From assembly GCA_016000195.1 (NCBI GenBank), contig JAECRO010000007.1:1-64000 (forward strand): a stretch of 64,000 nucleotides of DNA, given 5' to 3'. A model generated the notes under the pieces. It did no database searches, was not told where the DNA came from, and saw only the letters and a list, made by a program, of their open reading frames with translations. The stretch is from Burkholderiales bacterium (GTDB lineage: Bacteria; Pseudomonadota; Gammaproteobacteria; Burkholderiales; Burkholderiaceae_C). Below are positions 2,385-10,590 of this stretch, one piece after another; position 1 is the first letter of the stretch; the number at the start of each line of letters is the position of its first letter. Both the position numbers and the translations under genes were made by a program.

Positions 2385-4280
2385 ATGACCTCTCCAGCTC
2401 CCTCCATAGCCGCTCCCACTGCCCCTGTCGCCGCCGACAAGGAAGCCCACAAGCCCAGCAATTTCCTGCGCCAGATCATCGAAAAAGACCTGGCCGAAGG
2501 CACTTACGCCAGCCGCCGCTGGGGTGGCAGTCCGGGCGACGCCGCCCACCATGCCGCCGGCCAGCCCGATGCGGCCAAGGTGCGCATGCGCTTTCCGCCC
2601 GAGCCCAACGGCTACCTGCATGTCGGCCACGCCAAAAGCATCTGCCTGAACTTTGGCCTGGCGCGCGACTACGGCGGCGTGTGCCACCTGCGCTTTGACG
2701 ACACCAATCCCGAAAAAGAAGACACCGAATACGTGGACAGCATCAAGGATGCCGTGCAGTGGCTGGGCTTTGACTGGCACAACCACGGCGAAACCAACCT
2801 CTACCAGGCCAGCGACTACTTTGATTTCATGTACCGCGCCGCCGAATACCTGATCGAAGCCGGCCACGCCTACGTCGATGAGCAAAGCGCCGAGGAAATG
2901 CGCCAGAACCGGGGCGACTTCGGCCACCCCGGCGCCGACAGCCCGTTCCGCAGCCGCACCCCGGCCGAAAACCTCGCCCGTTTCCGCGAAATGCGCGACG
3001 GGCAACTGCCAGATGGCGCCGCCGTGCTGCGCGCCAAAATCGACATGGCCAGCCCCAACATCAACCTGCGCGACCCGGCCATCTACCGCATCCGCCGCGC
3101 CCACCACCACAACACCGGCGACAAATGGTGCATCTACCCGATGTACACCTACGCGCACCCGATTGAAGACGCACTGGAGCAGATCACCCACAGCATCTGC
3201 ACGCTCGAATTCGAGGACCAGCGCCCGTTCTACGACTGGCTGCTCGACCGCCTGGCTGAACAGACGACATTGCCCGATGGGCAAGTGGTGGGCGGCCTGA
3301 TTGCCACGCCGCACCCGCGCCAGTACGAATTTGCCCGCCTCAACCTGACCTACGTGCTGACCAGCAAGCGCAAGCTGGCGCAACTGGTGAATGAAAACCG
3401 CGTCAGCGGCTGGGACGACCCGCGCATGCCCACCATCGTCGGACTGCGCCGGCGCGGCTACACGCCGGAAAGTCTGCAACTGTTCGCCGAACGCATCGGC
3501 GTGACCAAGAGCGACAGCTGGATCGACTACAGCACCTTGGAGGGCTGCCTGCGTGAAACCCTGGACGGCAGCGCGCCCCGCGCCATGGCCGTGCTCGACC
3601 CGGTCAAGCTCGTGCTGACCAACTGGGACGAAGTGATGGGCGCCGGCACGCTCGACGATTGCAGCGCGCCGATTCACCCGCACCACCCGGAACTGGGCAA
3701 GCGCGAATTCAAGATCGGCAAGGAAGTCTGGATTGACCGCAGCGACTACGAAGAAACCCCGCCCAAGGGCTTTTTCCGCCTGTTCCCGCCGCATGTGAAC
3801 GCCAGCAAGCAGGCCATGGCCGGCAGCAAGGTGCGCCTGAAATACGGCCACGTCATCGAATGCACCGGCGCGGTCAAGGACGCCGACGGCAAGGTCATCG
3901 AAGTCCACGCCACCTTGATTCCGGACACCAAGAGCGGCACGCCGGGCGCGGATTCGGTCAAGGTCAAGGGCGTGATCACCTGGGTCGGCGTGAACGATGC
4001 GGTGCCGGCGGAAGTGCGGCTGTATGAGCGACTGTTCAGGGAAGCGCAGCCCGAAGGCGGCGGCGTGGACTTCCTGACGAACCTGAATGCCGACAGCCTG
4101 AAAGTGATGACCGCCTACGTCGAGCCGTCACTGGCTGGCGGCGGCGCGATTGAAGCCAAGGCCGATGACAAGTTCCAGTTTGAGCGGCATGGGTATTTTG
4201 TGGCGGACCGGGTGGACCATGCGGCGGGGAAGCCGGTGTTTAATTTGGCGGTGGGGTTGAAGGATAGCTGGGGAAAGTGA
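2385..4280 (+). CDS. glnS: Glutamine--tRNA ligase
   Basis: Class I aminoacyl-tRNA synthetase charging tRNA-Gln in the cytoplasm. The 631-residue protein carries the HIGH-type motif PPEPNGYLHVGHAKS (71-85), FDDTNPEKE for ATP/tRNA binding, and a KMSKS-type loop LTSKRKL near residue 327. The C-terminal beta-barrel anticodon-binding region follows. It is longer than the E. coli enzyme because of an Ala/Pro-rich N-terminal extension and a small insertion around residues 46-66. The stop codon overlaps the next ATG (TGATG), so the foreign-looking cassette downstream may be translated from glnS message. No clear Shine-Dalgarno precedes the ATG. Confidence 0.97.
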   Translation: MTSPAPSIAAPTAPVAADKEAHKPSNFLRQIIEKDLAEGTYASRRWGGSPGDAAHHAAGQPDAAKVRMRFPPEPNGYLHVGHAKSICLNFGLARDYGGVCHLRFDDTNPEKEDTEYVDSIKDAVQWLGFDWHNHGETNLYQASDYFDFMYRAAEYLIEAGHAYVDEQSAEEMRQNRGDFGHPGADSPFRSRTPAENLARFREMRDGQLPDGAAVLRAKIDMASPNINLRDPAIYRIRRAHHHNTGDKWCIYPMYTYAHPIEDALEQITHSICTLEFEDQRPFYDWLLDRLAEQTTLPDGQVVGGLIATPHPRQYEFARLNLTYVLTSKRKLAQLVNENRVSGWDDPRMPTIVGLRRRGYTPESLQLFAERIGVTKSDSWIDYSTLEGCLRETLDGSAPRAMAVLDPVKLVLTNWDEVMGAGTLDDCSAPIHPHHPELGKREFKIGKEVWIDRSDYEETPPKGFFRLFPPHVNASKQAMAGSKVRLKYGHVIECTGAVKDADGKVIEVHATLIPDTKSGTPGADSVKVKGVITWVGVNDAVPAEVRLYERLFREAQPEGGGVDFLTNLNADSLKVMTAYVEPSLAGGGAIEAKADDKFQFERHGYFVADRVDHAAGKPVFNLAVGLKDSWGK

Positions 4281-5209
4281 TGGCAGATATTAAGAAAGAT
4301 AATATCTTGAAAAAAGATGTAGAAATCAGTACATTGAATGATCAACTTTTTCATGAAACCCCCAATACCGAAACAGAATGGCATGGAACTTCATCAACAG
4401 GAAAGCAATGGACTGTTTATTGTGGATCTTCCGAGGAGGTATTAAAAAAATTACCTGACTCAAGCATTCATTGCATCGTAACTTCGCCACCTTATTTTTG
4501 GCTTCGCGATTACGGGATGAATGGACAAATTGGACTTGAAGAATCAGTTAAAGACTATGTTGACGCCTTAAGCAATGTAATGGCAGAGGCATATCGGGTT
4601 TTGCGTAAAGACGGTGTACTTTTTCTGAATTTAGGAGATACATACTATTCAGGTAAAGGCAAGTCGCACGGCACCGATCGTAAAAGTGGAAAACGACGCT
4701 TTGGTTTACGTGCTGTAGATAAAAGTGGTGGACTAGGAATTGGGCTTCAACGCAAATCAATAATTGGAATACCGTGGCGCGTCGCTATTGAAATGTCAAG
4801 CAAAGGCTGGATTCTTAGGAGTCCTATCATTTGGCATCGTGAAAATTGTCTCCCAGAATCAGTTGCGGACCGCCCCAGCAGAAGTTATGAGAATCTTTTT
4901 ATGTTTGCTAAAGATAGAAAATACTTCTTCAACAAGCAACCACTTATTGATAAAAAAGTTGAAGAAGATATGTGGACAATTGCATCTAGACCAAAAACAC
5001 GTAGCGGTCTAGACACAGCACCCTTTCCAGATGAACTTGTTGCAAGATGCTTAGAAATAGGTTGCCCTCCAGAAGGGATAGTTCTTGATCCATTTCTGGG
5101 TAGTGGCACAACGGCTAGAGTAGCAGTAACGATGGGTTACTCAACAGTTGGTATCGACCTAAATCCTGAGTTCTGTCTTTACTCAGTCAGCAATCTCAGA
5201 AAGTTATAA
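4280..5209 (+). CDS. Beta-class DNA methyltransferase (N4-C or N6-A)
   Basis: A 309-residue site-specific DNA methyltransferase. The catalytic motif IV TSPPYFWLRDYG is near the N-terminus (68-79). The AdoMet-binding motif DPFLGSGTT is near the C-terminus (270-278), followed by GYSTVGIDLNPEF. This order is that of beta-class enzymes, which methylate the N4 of cytosine or N6 of adenine; SPPY does not settle which. The ATG overlaps the glnS TGA by one base (an in-frame GTG lies three bases upstream). Base composition changes abruptly to AT-rich here, as do codon choices (AAA, ATT, TTA), indicating horizontal acquisition. It is followed after two bases by the ATPase gene. It probably protects host DNA from the partner nuclease (inference). 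Confidence 0.9.
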   Translation: MADIKKDNILKKDVEISTLNDQLFHETPNTETEWHGTSSTGKQWTVYCGSSEEVLKKLPDSSIHCIVTSPPYFWLRDYGMNGQIGLEESVKDYVDALSNVMAEAYRVLRKDGVLFLNLGDTYYSGKGKSHGTDRKSGKRRFGLRAVDKSGGLGIGLQRKSIIGIPWRVAIEMSSKGWILRSPIIWHRENCLPESVADRPSRSYENLFMFAKDRKYFFNKQPLIDKKVEEDMWTIASRPKTRSGLDTAPFPDELVARCLEIGCPPEGIVLDPFLGSGTTARVAVTMGYSTVGIDLNPEFCLYSVSNLRKL

Positions 5210-5211
5210 AT

Positions 5212-7074
5212 ATGTATTTCACACCTTTCCAAATTGTCAATTCCATTCATGCATTGAGGGATATTCATCCATTTTATGGAATAACATTTCTAGCATGCAA
5301 AAAAGATGGCTTACCAGTCGGAAGTACCATTGTGTTCCCACTTGATGCAAAAACAGATAAGTTTCTTCAAACATACCATCATCTCAACCCACGATCAAGT
5401 GCATTTTTTCAGCCATTCAAGTCTAGCGACAGATCAAAAAAATGGGTTAAATCAGACTATTCAGCCAAAGGTCTTCAAGCAATAAATACCCAAACATTTG
5501 CACCAGCATTTATTCACGAAAGTGGATCAAGGGTGTGGGGCTGGGATTCAAATTACATCGAAATTCTAAGCAAAAAATTATTAAAAAAAGAAAAAATACC
5601 CGCCTTTGATTTAGCTGTTTGGCTTTACCGGAATCATGACTGGCCAATTGACACAAAAAAATCAGAAGTAATAGAAAAATTTATTTCAGATTTCAACTTA
5701 ACGCACAAAGAATTTGAATTTTTATTCAAAGATAATCTTTCCAACAACAACATCAACAACCTCGTTCAAGACTCTAAAGTAGATTGGAACGATTTAAGCT
5801 CGCTTCTCCCCTCCCCTCCAGATGCAGAACCAGATGGAGGAGGGACTCTTACATATCTAGAAACTAGAGGAATTGGACCTGCCGATATTTTTAAAATATA
5901 TCCAGCAAAAAGACTAACAATAATAACTGGAGACAACGGACTAGGAAAATCATTTTTACTGGAAACAGCATGGCTAGCATTAACAGGAAAATGGGCAGAC
6001 AAACCAATACACCCCAGAAGAGATTCAAAATATTCAAAATATAATAATGGTGAAATAATTTTTGAAATTGAAGGTGAGCGCTCGAAAGCCCAACGAAGAA
6101 CTACAACTTATGACTGGAAAAATCTTTCATGGCATTCACCCGACAAAAGACCAACCATGGCAGGTCTTACAATTTATGCTCGGGTTGATGGATCATTTGC
6201 AATCTGGGATCCAGCACGCGCGAACTCTAATTCAAAAACAACCGTTTTCACCAAAACTGAAACATGGGATGGACTACCAGGTCAAATTGAAGGTTTAATT
6301 AGAGACTGGGTGCGATGGCAAAATAATCCTGCAGGCGGCCAATTCAATAACTTTAAAGAAGTATTGGATATGCTTTCCCCCTCTGACTTAGGAAAACTAA
6401 CACCCGGCACAAGTATCAGAATACCAGATGACCCTAGAGAAATTCCAACACTCAAACATCCATATGGTGAAATCCCTATCACGCATGAGTCAGCTGGTGT
6501 ACGTAGAGTTATCACATTAGCTTATTTATTAGTATGGTCTTGGCATGAGCACCTTATAGCTGCCGAACTATCAAATACAGATGCACAACGAAAAATGGTT
6601 GTTCTAATTGATGAGATAGAAGCTCATCTCCACCCTCGATGGCAACGTACTCTGCTACCTGCTCTATTAAGAGTACGAGAGGTGCTATCACCATCATTGG
6701 ATGTACAGTACATAGTCGCGACTCACTCACCATTAGTTATGGCATCATCCGAAGCCATCTTCGAAGACCAAGAGGACAAGCTTTTTCATCTAGACATGCA
6801 AAAATCCGGTGAAATTGCACTCAAAGAAATACCTTTTATCAAATATGGTGACGTATCTGCATGGCTAACGTCTCCAGTATTTGAATTACGTCATGCTCGA
6901 TCAAGTGAAGCCGAAGCTGCGATTGAGGCAGCAAAATCACTTCAACTTGCAGAGAACATTAATAAATTGGCCGTTGAAAACGTTAATGCAAATTTGATTA
7001 AATACCTTGCCGCGGATGATAGGTTTTGGCCAAGATGGGTTAGCTTTGCTGAAAGATTTGGAGTAATTTCTTGA
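5212..7074 (+). CDS. AAA/ABC-type ATPase of a defence cassette (PtuA-like)
   Basis: A 620-residue cytosolic ATPase. Residues 1-215 form an N-terminal region I do not recognise, with an aromatic-rich segment FDLAVWLYRNHDWP at 132-145. The C-terminal part is an SMC/OLD/PtuA-like ATP-binding domain: Walker A GDNGLGKS (240-247), signature-like HESAGVRR (425-432), Walker B VVLIDEIEAHLHP (463-475) and ATHSPLVMAS (503-512). The two halves of the nucleotide site are separated by about 215 residues. It starts two bases after the methyltransferase, and its TGA overlaps the TTG start of the HNH gene. The pairing with HNH resembles Septu (PtuA/PtuB), where the ATPase complexes with and regulates the nuclease. 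AT-rich throughout. Confidence 0.85.
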   Translation: MYFTPFQIVNSIHALRDIHPFYGITFLACKKDGLPVGSTIVFPLDAKTDKFLQTYHHLNPRSSAFFQPFKSSDRSKKWVKSDYSAKGLQAINTQTFAPAFIHESGSRVWGWDSNYIEILSKKLLKKEKIPAFDLAVWLYRNHDWPIDTKKSEVIEKFISDFNLTHKEFEFLFKDNLSNNNINNLVQDSKVDWNDLSSLLPSPPDAEPDGGGTLTYLETRGIGPADIFKIYPAKRLTIITGDNGLGKSFLLETAWLALTGKWADKPIHPRRDSKYSKYNNGEIIFEIEGERSKAQRRTTTYDWKNLSWHSPDKRPTMAGLTIYARVDGSFAIWDPARANSNSKTTVFTKTETWDGLPGQIEGLIRDWVRWQNNPAGGQFNNFKEVLDMLSPSDLGKLTPGTSIRIPDDPREIPTLKHPYGEIPITHESAGVRRVITLAYLLVWSWHEHLIAAELSNTDAQRKMVVLIDEIEAHLHPRWQRTLLPALLRVREVLSPSLDVQYIVATHSPLVMASSEAIFEDQEDKLFHLDMQKSGEIALKEIPFIKYGDVSAWLTSPVFELRHARSSEAEAAIEAAKSLQLAENINKLAVENVNANLIKYLAADDRFWPRWVSFAERFGVIS

Positions 7075-7697
7075 TTCCAATAACACCTCAACCAGAACCT
7101 ATTGGATTTAACGCCAGTGTTCGCTTACCAGGCTCTAAATTTTTAGCAAAGACACCCCATCCATCTGCAAAAGAATTTCAAACCAACAACTACTGGAAGA
7201 ATTCAATTAATGATTTATATTTATCTTATAAAAAAATTTGCGCTTATAGTTCCGCCCCAATATGGCATACAGGCTCTGCAACAGTTGATCATTACTTAGC
7301 TAAATCAGTTAGGCCTGATTTAGCTTACGAGTGGAACAACTTTCGATTAGCAAGATTTAAATTAAATTACAACAAAGACATAAATGAGAAAGTTATTGAT
7401 CCATTTACCATTGAAGATGGATGGTTCCAAATTGACTTCCCAAGCTGTCTGATAAAGCCAGGCACAGGATTAAGTGATGCGGTTCATAAATCAGTAGTTG
7501 ATTCGATAAGAATTTTAAAACTGAACGATGATGATGAACTTGTTCAGGAACGTGCCACCAGAATGACAGAGTTCGCCGAAGGCGAAATACTTTTATCTTG
7601 GCTAGAAAAATATTACCCTCTACTAGCAAAAGAAATAGTAAGACAAGGAATACAAAATAACGCCAACAGCATATTTAAAACTCGATCTATCACATAA
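7071..7697 (+). CDS. HNH-type nuclease, PtuB-like
   Basis: A 208-residue protein. The central segment KKICAYSS (54-61), TVDHYLAKS (71-79), AYEWNNFRLA (85-94) and LNYNKDINEKVIDPF (98-112) follows the HNH beta-beta-alpha-metal layout seen in PtuB and related nucleases. His74 is the likely general base and Asn89/90 the structural residue. The usual CxxC zinc pair is reduced to CAYS, so the zinc knuckle may be absent. Translation most likely starts at TTG 7071, overlapping the ATPase stop by four bases (TTGA); no better start is nearby. It is the last AT-rich gene, and composition returns to GC-rich within 40 bases after it. Presumed effector of the cassette. Confidence 0.78.
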   Translation: MIPITPQPEPIGFNASVRLPGSKFLAKTPHPSAKEFQTNNYWKNSINDLYLSYKKICAYSSAPIWHTGSATVDHYLAKSVRPDLAYEWNNFRLARFKLNYNKDINEKVIDPFTIEDGWFQIDFPSCLIKPGTGLSDAVHKSVVDSIRILKLNDDDELVQERATRMTEFAEGEILLSWLEKYYPLLAKEIVRQGIQNNANSIFKTRSIT

Positions 7698-7736
7698 AAT
7701 TTGACTCATAATTTATCTAAACAATAAATCATTTAA

Positions 7737-8453
7737 ATGGCCAAGTTCCTAAACACCAGCGCAACCAACTATTTCCTTGAAGAGCTGATCAAGGGCGCTG
7801 CAGACCGATTAATCCTGATCAGCCCCTTCCTCAAGCTCAACGACCGGATGAAGGAATTGCTGGCGGACAAGAACCGGCTGAAGATCGACGTTCGCATTGT
7901 TTATGGCAAAAGCGAGTTGCAGCCGCAGGAAACCGAATGGCTGAGCGGCCTGACGTATATCCGAACCAGCTTTTGCAAGAACCTGCATGCCAAGTGCTAC
8001 ATGAACGAGAACATGTGCATCGTCACCAGCCTGAACCTGTACGAGTTCAGCCAGGTGAACAACAACGAAATGGGCATCCTCATCCTGCGCGACGAAGATG
8101 GCCAGCTTTACAAAGACGCCTACGAGGAAGCCCAGCGCATCATCCGCATCAGCGACGAGATTCGCATTTCGCTCGAACGCGTGGCCATCGAGGCCGAAAC
8201 GCCCAGCCGCAACGACGACCGGGCGGCAGAAGCACCGAATCCGGAAGGCAAGCTGGCTTCCTCGAAAATCGCGCAAAAGCTGGGTTTGAAAACCGGGCTG
8301 TTTCTGGAACGCGCCGCCCAGCAGGGTTATCTGGCGTTTGACAACGGCCAGTTTTTCCTGAGCCCCAAGGGCGAAAAGGTCGGCGTGGAGTTCGTCGCCA
8401 AGTCGCGTTTCGGCCCCTACTTCCTGTGGCCGCAGGATTTTTACCTGCTCTGA
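7737..8453 (+). CDS. Phospholipase D-fold protein (single HxK motif)
   Basis: A 238-residue protein with one PLD-type active-site motif: H84-A-K86 (LHAKCYM), with Glu91 where the family usually has Asp, then TSLN (97-100) in the GSxN position. Single-motif PLD proteins act as dimers and include nucleases of the Nuc/BfiI type, so DNA or RNA cleavage is plausible. Residues about 150-238 form a C-terminal region with a helix-turn-helix-like GKLASSKIAQKLGLKTGLFLERA. Composition is GC-rich, unlike the preceding cassette. Its TGA overlaps the ATG of the zeta-like gene, so the two are probably co-translated. The substrate is unknown. Confidence 0.78.
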   Translation: MAKFLNTSATNYFLEELIKGAADRLILISPFLKLNDRMKELLADKNRLKIDVRIVYGKSELQPQETEWLSGLTYIRTSFCKNLHAKCYMNENMCIVTSLNLYEFSQVNNNEMGILILRDEDGQLYKDAYEEAQRIIRISDEIRISLERVAIEAETPSRNDDRAAEAPNPEGKLASSKIAQKLGLKTGLFLERAAQQGYLAFDNGQFFLSPKGEKVGVEFVAKSRFGPYFLWPQDFYLL

Positions 8454-9049
8454 TGACCAACACACCCCAATCCTCTCCCCGTGTCGTCGTCTTCGCCGGC
8501 CCCAACGGCGCGGGCAAATCGACGCATGCCGATGCGATTCTGGCCGCGCTGGGCATTGAAACCTTTGTCAACGCCGACTACATCGCACGCGGCCTGTCCG
8601 GGCGCCATACCGATGCCGTCGCGTTCGAGGCGGGCCGCATCATGCTCAGGCGCTTGCGGCAACTGGGCGAAGCCAGGGCCGATTTTGCTTTTGAATCCAC
8701 GCTGTCAAGCCGCTCCTTTGCCCACTTCCTGCACGGTCTGAAGGCCAAAGGTTACGCGGTCGCCATCTATTATTTTTCGCTGGCCAGCGCCCAGTTGGCG
8801 GTTCGCCGCGTCAAGCTGCGCGTGGCCCTGGGCGGGCATGATGTGCCGGCGGATGTGGTCAAGCGGCGATTTGGCCGCAGCCTGCAGAATTTCTTTCAGC
8901 TCTACGTTCCATTGGCCGATGAATGGACGCTGTTCGACAACTCATCGGCAACCCAGGCGCTGCCGGTAGCGGCACGCTATGCCAATCAACTGACCGTGAC
9001 GGAGCCCGCAACATGGCACAAACTGCAAAAACTCAGCAAAACCGCCTGA
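8453..9049 (+). CDS. Zeta-toxin-like P-loop kinase
   Basis: A 198-residue P-loop protein of the zeta/PezT-like family. Walker A GPNGAGKST is at 16-24, followed by FVNADYIARGLSG, the position of the Asn-Ala-Asp that in zeta toxins contacts UDP-N-acetylglucosamine. Two arginine-rich stretches (RRVKLRVALGGHDVP, VVKRRFGRSLQNFF) would supply phosphate-contacting residues. Zeta toxins phosphorylate UDP-GlcNAc, but many stand-alone chromosomal relatives have unproven substrates. The ATG at 8453 overlaps the upstream stop. No epsilon/PezA antitoxin precedes it; the only candidate partner is the small ORF overlapping its 3' end. Confidence 0.8.
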   Translation: MTNTPQSSPRVVVFAGPNGAGKSTHADAILAALGIETFVNADYIARGLSGRHTDAVAFEAGRIMLRRLRQLGEARADFAFESTLSSRSFAHFLHGLKAKGYAVAIYYFSLASAQLAVRRVKLRVALGGHDVPADVVKRRFGRSLQNFFQLYVPLADEWTLFDNSSATQALPVAARYANQLTVTEPATWHKLQKLSKTA

Positions 9050-9309: not shown

Positions 9310-10182
9310 ATGCCTCGTCCCCAAACCATCCAAATCTTCCTCCCTGCTGGCGACCCGCGTGGCATGCGCGTGGCTGAAATCACGACACGCATCATTCGCG
9401 TCATCGAAGTGCCGCGCAGCCAGCTTGGCGAGTTCATCAAGACGCCGGAAGCGCAGCAGGTGGGCGTGTATTTTTTGCTGGGCGAGTTGTCGGAAGTTGG
9501 CTTGCCGCGTGTGTACATCGGCCAGTCCGGCAGCGTCGGCACCCGGCTGGTGCAGCACAACCAGAGCAAGGACTTCTGGAACCGGGTGATGGTGGTGATC
9601 TCTCTGACAAATAGCATGACGCAAACGCATGCGCTGTTTCTGGAGTGGTTTGCGATTTCAGAGGCCACCAAGGCCGGGCGCTACAGCCTGGAGAACGGCA
9701 ACGCTGGCGCACGGCCCCACACGCCCGCGCCGCTGGAGGCGGACTGCCATGAAATTCATGAAACCGCCGCCACCCTGCTGGCCACGCTGGGCCAGCCGAT
9801 TTTCGAGCCGCTGACGAATGCGCCGGCTTTTCCGGGCGAGAAGAAAGAGCTGTTCTATTGCAAGAGCTCGGGCGCCGATGGCGTGGGCGAGTACACGACC
9901 GAAGGCTTTGTGGTGCGCAAAGGGTCACGCGGGCGGGTGGAAAACGTGGCATCTATTCAGGGCACATCGAATGAGCGTTTTCGCAATCAACTGATCACCG
10001 AGGGCATCATGGCCGCTCAAGACAACATGCTGGTTTTTGCCCGTGACCATCTCTTCGCCAGCCCCAGCATGGCTGCCATAGCGCTCATGGGCCGCTCGGC
10101 CAATGGCTGGCTGGAATGGAAAAACCCGCAGGGCAAGACGCTGGACGAGGTGAAGCGCCAGTCGGTAACCGTGACGATCTGA
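9310..10182 (+). CDS. GIY-YIG nuclease family protein with DUF4357 domain
   Basis: A 290-residue protein. Residues about 50-140 form a GIY-YIG-like fold: VGVYFLLGE (GIY position), RVYIGQSGSVGTRLVQH (YIG plus Arg) and a downstream acidic residue in FLEW. The C-terminal part (GFVVRKGSRGRVEN...GWLEWKNPQGKTLDE) matches DUF4357, a domain frequently fused to GIY-YIG or restriction-related proteins. The GIY motif is degenerate (GVYF). The start ATG 9310 was chosen because upstream residues (CCFRPFRYLGQ) look non-coding. It sits among defence-like genes; a DNA-cleaving role is probable but unproven. Confidence 0.78.
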   Translation: MPRPQTIQIFLPAGDPRGMRVAEITTRIIRVIEVPRSQLGEFIKTPEAQQVGVYFLLGELSEVGLPRVYIGQSGSVGTRLVQHNQSKDFWNRVMVVISLTNSMTQTHALFLEWFAISEATKAGRYSLENGNAGARPHTPAPLEADCHEIHETAATLLATLGQPIFEPLTNAPAFPGEKKELFYCKSSGADGVGEYTTEGFVVRKGSRGRVENVASIQGTSNERFRNQLITEGIMAAQDNMLVFARDHLFASPSMAAIALMGRSANGWLEWKNPQGKTLDEVKRQSVTVTI

Positions 10183-10244: not shown

Positions 10245-10323
10245 CCTCATTCCAGTGATGGCGGATGCATGACGCTGCCCAGCGTATGCCATGCTCCAGG
10301 AGTTTCATGAAGAATGCTTTTCC

Positions 10324-10590
10324 ATGCCAACGCTCTCCATCTTCTTCGGTATCGTCATCCGCATGTGGCACGACGATCATCCGCCACCCCACATCCACGC
10401 TGAATACCAAGGCTTCGAGGCGCTGGTGGATATCGCCACTGGCGAGGTGCGCGAAGGAAGCTTGCCGCGCAAAGTGGCTTCCATCGTTCAAGAGTGGTGT
10501 CTGGTACATCAGGCAGAACTGCAAGACAATTGGCAACGCGCCCAGCGGTTTGAGCCGCTGGACAGAATTCAAGGAGCTGACCGTGATTAA
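10324..10590 (+). CDS. DUF4160 domain protein
   Basis: An 88-residue protein with the DUF4160 signature: MPTLSIFFGIVIRMWHDDHPPPHIHAEY at the N-terminus, containing the conserved DHPPPHxHxxY cluster, and a C-terminal helix ending near the family consensus LxxNW. DUF4160 genes are habitually followed by DUF2442 genes, as here (eight-base overlap). The pair has toxin-antitoxin-like genomic behaviour, but no biochemical activity is established that I know of. Start ATG 10324 gives the canonical N-terminus; an upstream in-frame ATG at 10291 would add 11 residues. Confidence 0.82.
   Translation: MPTLSIFFGIVIRMWHDDHPPPHIHAEYQGFEALVDIATGEVREGSLPRKVASIVQEWCLVHQAELQDNWQRAQRFEPLDRIQGADRD

Follow-up and report, generated by a model that had tools for sequence, protein, structure and literature searches.

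The first 64,000 nucleotides of contig JAECRO010000007.1 of a Burkholderiales bacterium (GenBank assembly GCA_016000195.1; hereafter the window) carry, directly behind glnS, three tightly packed genes coding for a DNA methyltransferase (MTase), an ATPase and an HNH nuclease, the last two being the PtuA and PtuB proteins of Septu. Direct reading of the window gave the order glnS-TGATG-MTase-2 nt-ATPase-TTGA-HNH for the region 4280–7697, with all genes on the forward strand. The glutaminyl-tRNA synthetase gene glnS (2385–4280), identified from the list of open reading frames and the sequence, is a host gene and forms the boundary of the insertion; a match to it was present in 41 of 41 genomes searched, some of these matches being only to related synthetases. 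Its TGA stop codon is overlapped by the ATG of the MTase gene at 4280 (TGATG). The MTase gene stops with TAA at 5207–5209 and the ATPase gene starts with ATG at 5212, two bases further on. The latter ends with TGA at 7072–7074, overlapped by the TTG start codon of the HNH gene at 7071 (TTGA), whose own stop ends at 7697. These junctions are those given in a preliminary description of the window made from the sequence alone.

The GC content is 38.5% over 4280–7736, whereas the window as a whole has 63.0% and glnS 64.1%, and among 606 stretches of that length taken in 100-base steps the lowest value was obtained for the one starting at 4301. A spacer (7698–7736, no strand) forms the end of the AT-rich unit, and host-level GC content is regained in the next gene, a PLD-like gene with its ATG at 7737. 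The sharp AT-richness ending within 40 bases of the HNH gene, which had been remarked upon earlier, was clearly found again.

The protein encoded by the first gene (4280–5209) matched the Pfam family N6_N4_Mtase (PF01555, 142 bits) and the PADLOC model MTase_II (274 bits). Its catalytic motif IV, SPPY (residues 69–72; 4484–4495), invariant in the MTase alignment, precedes the AdoMet-binding motif I, DPFLGSGT (residues 270–277; 5087–5110). This order, motif IV, target recognition domain and motif I, assigns the enzyme to the beta class, in agreement with the preliminary description. With both motifs present and a nuclease gene linked to it, the MTase shows the arrangement by which Type II restriction-modification (R-M) is recognised. 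The nearest named relative seen was the Pac25I methylase (39–41% identity), which we take to be a member of the cytosine-N4 (m4C) class. The SPPY motif also fits the rule for m4C MTases, and since motif and relationship both fit that class, the enzyme is probably an m4C MTase.

The second gene (5212–7074) encodes a long form of PtuA of 620 residues, of which residues 1–618 were matched by the PADLOC PtuA model PDLC00270 with 823 bits. Its motor is an ABC-type ATPase (AAA_21/AAA_15), and both Walker motifs are intact, as is required of Septu. In Walker A (GDNGLGKS, residues 240–247; 5929–5952), G240, D241, N242, L244, G245 and K246 were invariant in 105 sequences, as were D467, E468, L473, H474 and P475 in Walker B and the residues following it (LIDEIEAHLHP, region of residues 462–475; 6595–6636). 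The N-terminal region of the ATPase had been called unrecognised. Residues 1–215 indeed gave no Pfam match above cut-off, but they are covered by PDLC00270. The third gene (7071–7697) encodes a PtuB-type HNH nuclease adjoining PtuA, matched by PDLC00348 with 202 bits. Both profile matches bear out the kinship with PtuA and PtuB that had been proposed from the layout of the HNH protein. The residues H74, N90 and N99 of the HNH motif (7290–7367) are conserved in at least 90% of 47 PtuB proteins, and the spacing of H74 and N90 is that of the essential H75 and N91 in PtuB of an E. coli Septu (PMC13096335; here and below, statements on cited papers refer to the available parts of their texts). The NCBIfam Ec78 models scored far under their cut-offs (59.8 of 500 for PtuA, 36.5 of 150 for PtuB). 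Among plasmid and phage records, none had a PtuA match that extended over 80% of the query.

The recurrence of this gene order was investigated in a survey composed of the best 80 of 496 PtuA relatives from genome contigs (the long query over-represents long forms), five loci from viral collections, 30 loci from 398 genomes (one being the window) and one copy of the window. Both window copies (L001, L088) were excluded from the locus counts, 14 distant and three cut loci were counted apart, and the MTase was scored in loci offering at least 1 kb of upstream sequence (loci with room). Two forms of PtuA were found: a long one with the N-terminal domain (68 loci) and a short one without it (29 loci). 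A MTase gene is located directly upstream and on the same strand in 49 of the 61 long-PtuA loci with room, versus none of the 26 short-PtuA loci with room. The 49 include L075, with an open MTase frame of only 110 codons, and L049, with a partial match; L030, with a MTase fragment, stands outside them, although it was grouped with the window-type MTase loci (M1, see below) in the PtuA tree and in domain scoring. PtuB is found downstream in 64 of 64 long-PtuA loci with room and in 23 of 27 short-PtuA loci. The gap from MTase to PtuA lies between -20 and +60 nt in 38 of the 39 loci measured. In 26 short-PtuA loci examined for it, the N-terminal domain was absent from all six reading frames. One short-form locus (L060) has a MTase-like gene (70 bits) 5.5 kb away, and two viral-collection contigs (L082, L083/L166) carry a MTase together with a long PtuA.

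The three-gene order, for which a search in other genomes had been proposed, was encountered there. Judged by record titles, it recurs in at least ten phyla; for the MTase-PtuA pair we take these to include Pseudomonadota, Bacillota, Bacteroidota, Cyanobacteriota, Acidobacteriota, Chloroflexota, Nitrospirota, KSB1, Calditrichota and Kiritimatiellota. Because the same order recurs so widely, the trio is not the product of chance. In a PtuA tree (93 rows, quick method; L058, L065, L069, L074 and L101 were left out, their match having ended early), 21 short forms fell into one clade (support 98) and five more (L060, L068, L070, L071, L073) among the long forms. The latter suggest joint loss of the domain and the MTase, L070 having too little upstream sequence for MTase scoring. 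Within 47 complete trios the MTase was the most conserved part, with a median pairwise identity of 61%, followed by the ATPase part (47%), PtuB (43%) and the N-terminal domain (35%). The identity matrices of the parts correlate (r between 0.35 and 0.81, every value exceeding 999 permutations), least for MTase and PtuB. This correlation was set aside as functional evidence, as it fits shared descent and not function.

The slot upstream of PtuA can hold more than one kind of MTase. One clade of ten long PtuA proteins (SH-aLRT 99), eight of them alphaproteobacterial by title, is nested in the MTase-bearing long forms and carries a different MTase (M2) in the same position. Motif IV of M2 reads SPPF instead of the SPPY found in 39 of 40 PtuA-linked MTases of the window type (M1). 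At matched ATPase identity (0.44–0.52), the median MTase identity was 38.7% between M1 and M2 loci versus 63.1% among M1 loci. The other parts, taken as norm, hardly differed in the same comparison (34.0 vs 35.6% for the N-terminal domain, 44.7 vs 42.3% for PtuB). M2 labels were set by hand from pairwise identities, with L049 and L050 added on score. In one MTase tree the ten M2 rows form a single clade (100). In a second tree, which includes the MTases linked to McrB-like ATPases, presented below, M1 groups with these at 98/93, with M2 and others outside. The alignment of linked and unlinked MTases did not include L157, nor the second tree L159. As the 98/93 grouping does not contain M2, replacement is likelier than fast change. 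This exclusion disfavours M2 as a fast-evolving M1, with the tree program warning that the long branches of M2 and of the outgroup meet. Between motifs IV and I, the PtuA-linked MTases show a signature, K plus RRFG[LI]R..DK.G (residues 138–150 in the window; 4691–4729), whose main residues are kept in at least 95% of 47 linked MTases (M1 and M2) and which is absent from all seven unlinked MTases in the alignment. Since M1 and M2 have it in common and the unlinked enzymes lack it, both may read the same motif. A MTase from a viral-collection contig (L167, 4004–6535) has a frame with a long insert which, by reading, resembles an intein.

A MTase that merely happens to adjoin a standard Septu pair as a separate gene would explain why, in 399 genomes of the order, eight of the ten MTase matches at E 1e-40 or better have no PtuA (loci of 3.5–3.9 kb). 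This explanation is very improbable, as it leaves aside the 49 of 61 against 0 of 26 loci, the spacing of a few bases and the replacement within the slot, and as the remaining two matches, the window itself and G478 (64%), are PtuA-linked.

The origin of the N-terminal domain of long PtuA (residues 1–205; 5212–5826), a predicted DNA-recognition domain with a confident AF2 fold (pLDDT 95.2), was approached through relatives of the MTase on plasmids. The four best of these (45–50% identity), from Mycobacterium, Sphingobium, Mesorhizobium and Roseibium (L162, L163, L164, L172), head operons whose other two products are annotated as AAA family ATPase and hypothetical protein. By their AAA_5 domain these ATPases are McrB-like, and the third protein matched McrC (PF10117) in three of the four operons, the one from Mycobacterium having no Pfam match. 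An integrase or recombinase gene is also present in each of these four stretches. The PtuA N-terminal profile matched the N-termini of the McrB-like proteins weakly and in pieces. Aligning the profiles of 58 PtuA domains and 119 McrB-like N-termini with hhalign gave a score of 49.1 (P 8e-7, probability 91.6%) over residues 2–165, at 21% identity. Control scores were at most 23.1 for 40 column-shuffled profiles, 11.7 for the reversed profile, 12.4 for the MTase and 18.8 for the ATPase part of McrB. At 5 bits or more, the domain profile matched 105 of the 119 McrB-like proteins, every match starting in the first 60 residues; as the 119 proteins are closely related to each other, these do not amount to 105 independent tests. 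The same profile gave zero matches in reversed, shuffled or 120 MTase sequences. In 398 genomes it found the window, G008, a broken marginal match in G168 and, in G368, a protein of 571 residues whose AAA_5 domain is of the McrB type (E 2.1e-4 when one genome is searched, about 0.08 over all). A search for McrB in the 399 genomes of the order was uninformative, with no match at E 1e-60. Homology of the domain to the N-termini of MTase-linked McrB-like ATPases is supported by these profile comparisons, but it is remote and the comparisons are not proof.

Compared with known systems, the trio stands apart from each. Type I Septu consists of PtuA and PtuB alone, with no further component, whereas the trio adds an N-terminal domain, roughly 205 residues long, and, in the 49 loci counted above, a MTase; the short-PtuA relatives of type I have neither. 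In Septu type II, or retron type I-A, a reverse transcriptase and msr-msd adjoin PtuAB. In the trio a MTase upstream of PtuAB takes the place of the reverse transcriptase, as the preliminary description had it: the only reverse transcriptase of the genome (RVT_1) lies on contig C48, the window being on C84, and no Rfam match at gathering score was found in the window. Pac25I-type R-M has the related beta-class MTase already mentioned, but its nuclease is encoded by a restriction endonuclease gene of the XcyI family. In one record (L165), the genes of the Pac25I methylase and the XcyI-family nuclease are immediately preceded by a long gene (176–2797) for an ABC/SMC-like ATPase (SMC_N, AAA_23). 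PrrC and RloC resemble the trio in that an ABC ATPase-bearing nuclease is genetically linked to DNA modification. In both, the nuclease is part of the same polypeptide and is not of the HNH type, and the R-M system linked to PrrC is a complete type I enzyme.

A parallel in layout is the LlaJI type of R-M, in which MTase genes are followed by those of a NTPase with an N-terminal specificity region and of a separate nuclease. R1.LlaJI, a McrB homologue, is the sole specificity subunit of LlaJI, and DNA binding, a known function of the McrB N-terminus, was proposed to reside in its unique N-terminal part; LlaJI with its MTases targets unmethylated DNA, whereas McrBC cuts methylated DNA (PMC1459862). 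The LlaJI-like plasmid operons of MTase, McrB and McrC described above resemble the trio in an N-terminal domain that seems remotely homologous to that of PtuA and in MTases that group with those of the trio; for the specificity region the likeness consists of this remote homology, R1.LlaJI itself lying outside the comparison. The engines differ, LlaJI having an AAA+ McrB motor, a McrC PD-(D/E)XK nuclease and two 5-methylcytosine (m5C) MTases, and the trio an ABC ATPase, a HNH nuclease and one MTase. The description of PADLOC from 2021 lists a reverse transcriptase for Septu type II and a separate system, Hma, with a m5C MTase often near Septu; the MTase-Septu trio is not described in the available part of that text (PMC8565338). 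No description of the trio was found in the open literature on Septu, PtuA or PtuB combined with methyltransferase, methylation or McrB, subscription papers and preprints being mostly outside this scope. The trio looks like a new combination, in which Septu is coupled to DNA modification and carries an apparent McrB-type specificity domain.

Taken together, the trio is best read, with a rough probability of 0.6, as a R-M system built on the Septu engine. From the LlaJI precedent we infer a division of labour with the N-terminal domain of PtuA as reader, the MTase as marker, the ATPase of PtuA as gate and PtuB as cutter. The MTase, probably cytosine-N4-specific, would mark a short motif in the host DNA, and the N-terminal domain would act as specificity domain by reading this motif when unmodified. 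Once foreign DNA is bound, PtuB would be released or brought into position by the ABC-ATPase assembly of PtuA and would then cut. Its target would most likely be this bound DNA, but may instead be a different nucleic acid, as is the case for other Septu and retron systems. The module formed by reader and marker would in evolution also have been fitted to the unrelated engine McrB-McrC. The notion of ATPase-gated R-M, put forward earlier for the window, gains support from these comparisons, and the case for the trio is firmer than first put.

Several observations weigh against this reading. An independent-pairs test of the N-terminal domain against the MTase on the tree had too few contrasts. 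The evidence for the domain is piecewise, the homology is remote, the McrB sample is not independent, and no significant match to the domain was obtained among solved structures, which leaves the homology without structural support. Of the 61 long-PtuA loci with room, eleven lack an upstream MTase and L030 has a fragment only; no close MTase was found elsewhere in the genomes of the eleven. Ten gave no match at E 1e-20 and one contained relatives of 42% and 38% identity, in a search that did recover its positive controls, two genomes with M1 and one with M2. Supply of the MTase in trans was consequently dismissed, no close copy having been found. The idea that the N-terminal domain is eroding where the MTase is missing was likewise rejected: GLQxxNTQTF looks lost in L036 and L043, but the overall scores overlap (medians 226 and 239). 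Seven of the eleven loci are cyanobacterial by title (L014, L016, L018, L028, L029, L036, L043). The MTase-free loci may recognise a different mark or rely on a different MTase.

The same eleven loci would be expected if the N-terminal domain read a modified base in foreign DNA, in the way of McrBC, with the MTase in a secondary or regulatory role; of the two known systems, McrBC cuts methylated and LlaJI unmethylated DNA (PMC1459862). Such modification dependence is unlikely, since with the same mark as trigger a self-methylating cell would be attacked, and since the MTase is kept in most long-PtuA loci. The target of PtuB adds a further point against the R-M reading: PtuAB can be a tRNase, which would fit an abortive guard system. 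Septu EcB88 cleaves tRNA-Tyr and needs its ATPase and HNH residues (PMC13096335), PtuAB of retron-Eco7 depletes tRNA-Tyr (PMC11555353), and PrrC is silenced by its linked type I R-M enzyme (PMC2610378). By analogy, PtuAB would be a suicide effector (tRNase or ssDNase) that is silenced either by the MTase or by host DNA carrying the methylation; a phage able to block or outrun methylation would set it free. This possibility is doubtful, though less so than modification dependence; taken alone, it leaves unexplained why the N-terminal domain is common to McrB-like ATPases and why domain and MTase occur together.

The R-M reading can be extended. We consider it slightly better than an even chance that MTase and N-terminal reader form a transferable self/non-self unit joined to at least two unrelated motor-nucleases, PtuAB (ABC-ATPase/HNH) and McrBC (AAA+/PD-(D/E)XK). 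The Septu version would then be an undescribed type of ATP-dependent R-M occurring across many phyla. Its connection with MTase-free Septu would show how a methylation-blind effector became a methylation-reading one, or the reverse. The apparent kinship of the PtuA and McrB-like N-terminal domains suggests that one self/non-self reader was fitted in evolution to different cutting machines. If true, Septu, McrBC-like restriction and classical R-M would be joined by one exchangeable specificity module, showing how restriction systems acquire new engines. A natural branch of Septu with a MTase and a candidate reader makes the trigger a testable molecule, namely an unmethylated motif.

The region 3' of glnS is a hotspot within the genus. 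The PLD-like gene aligns with G411 and G407 starting at its ATG, and in both of these the space between glnS and the PLD-like gene is occupied by other genes. In G418 and G416 glnS is followed directly, via TGATG or TAATG, by the DUF4357 gene, whose counterpart in the window starts at 9310. On account of these different genes at the glnS end of congeners, the AT-rich unit 4280–7736 looks like one of several interchangeable inserts. An ATG overlapping the glnS stop was seen in seven of 18 loci with a readable stop, the window included (window 4270–4282; L118–L136), and in congeners it is the start codon of genes of at least two other kinds. The end of glnS (tggggaaag before the stop) could serve as candidate ribosome-binding site for the gene that follows.

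The PLD-like protein (7737–8453), found behind differing gene sets after glnS in G411 and G407, shows weak similarity to DrmC and is possibly encoded by a defence gene of its own. Further downstream the window encodes a Zeta-toxin-like kinase (8426–9049; PF06414, 45.8 bits), the DUF4357 protein (9310–10182), with a RAMA match below cut-off, and a DUF4160 protein (10291–10590), probably one half of a small gene pair. In another genome (L147, G405:C168), four extra partial glnS 3' ends, comprising the last 36–127 codons, follow glnS in a row with other sequence between them (oriented coordinates 987–1229, 1950–2324, 2992–3147 and 3571–3678), an arrangement resembling a cassette array in which glnS ends form the repeats. 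L142 (G411) and L146 (G414) each have one weaker copy of the glnS 3' end.

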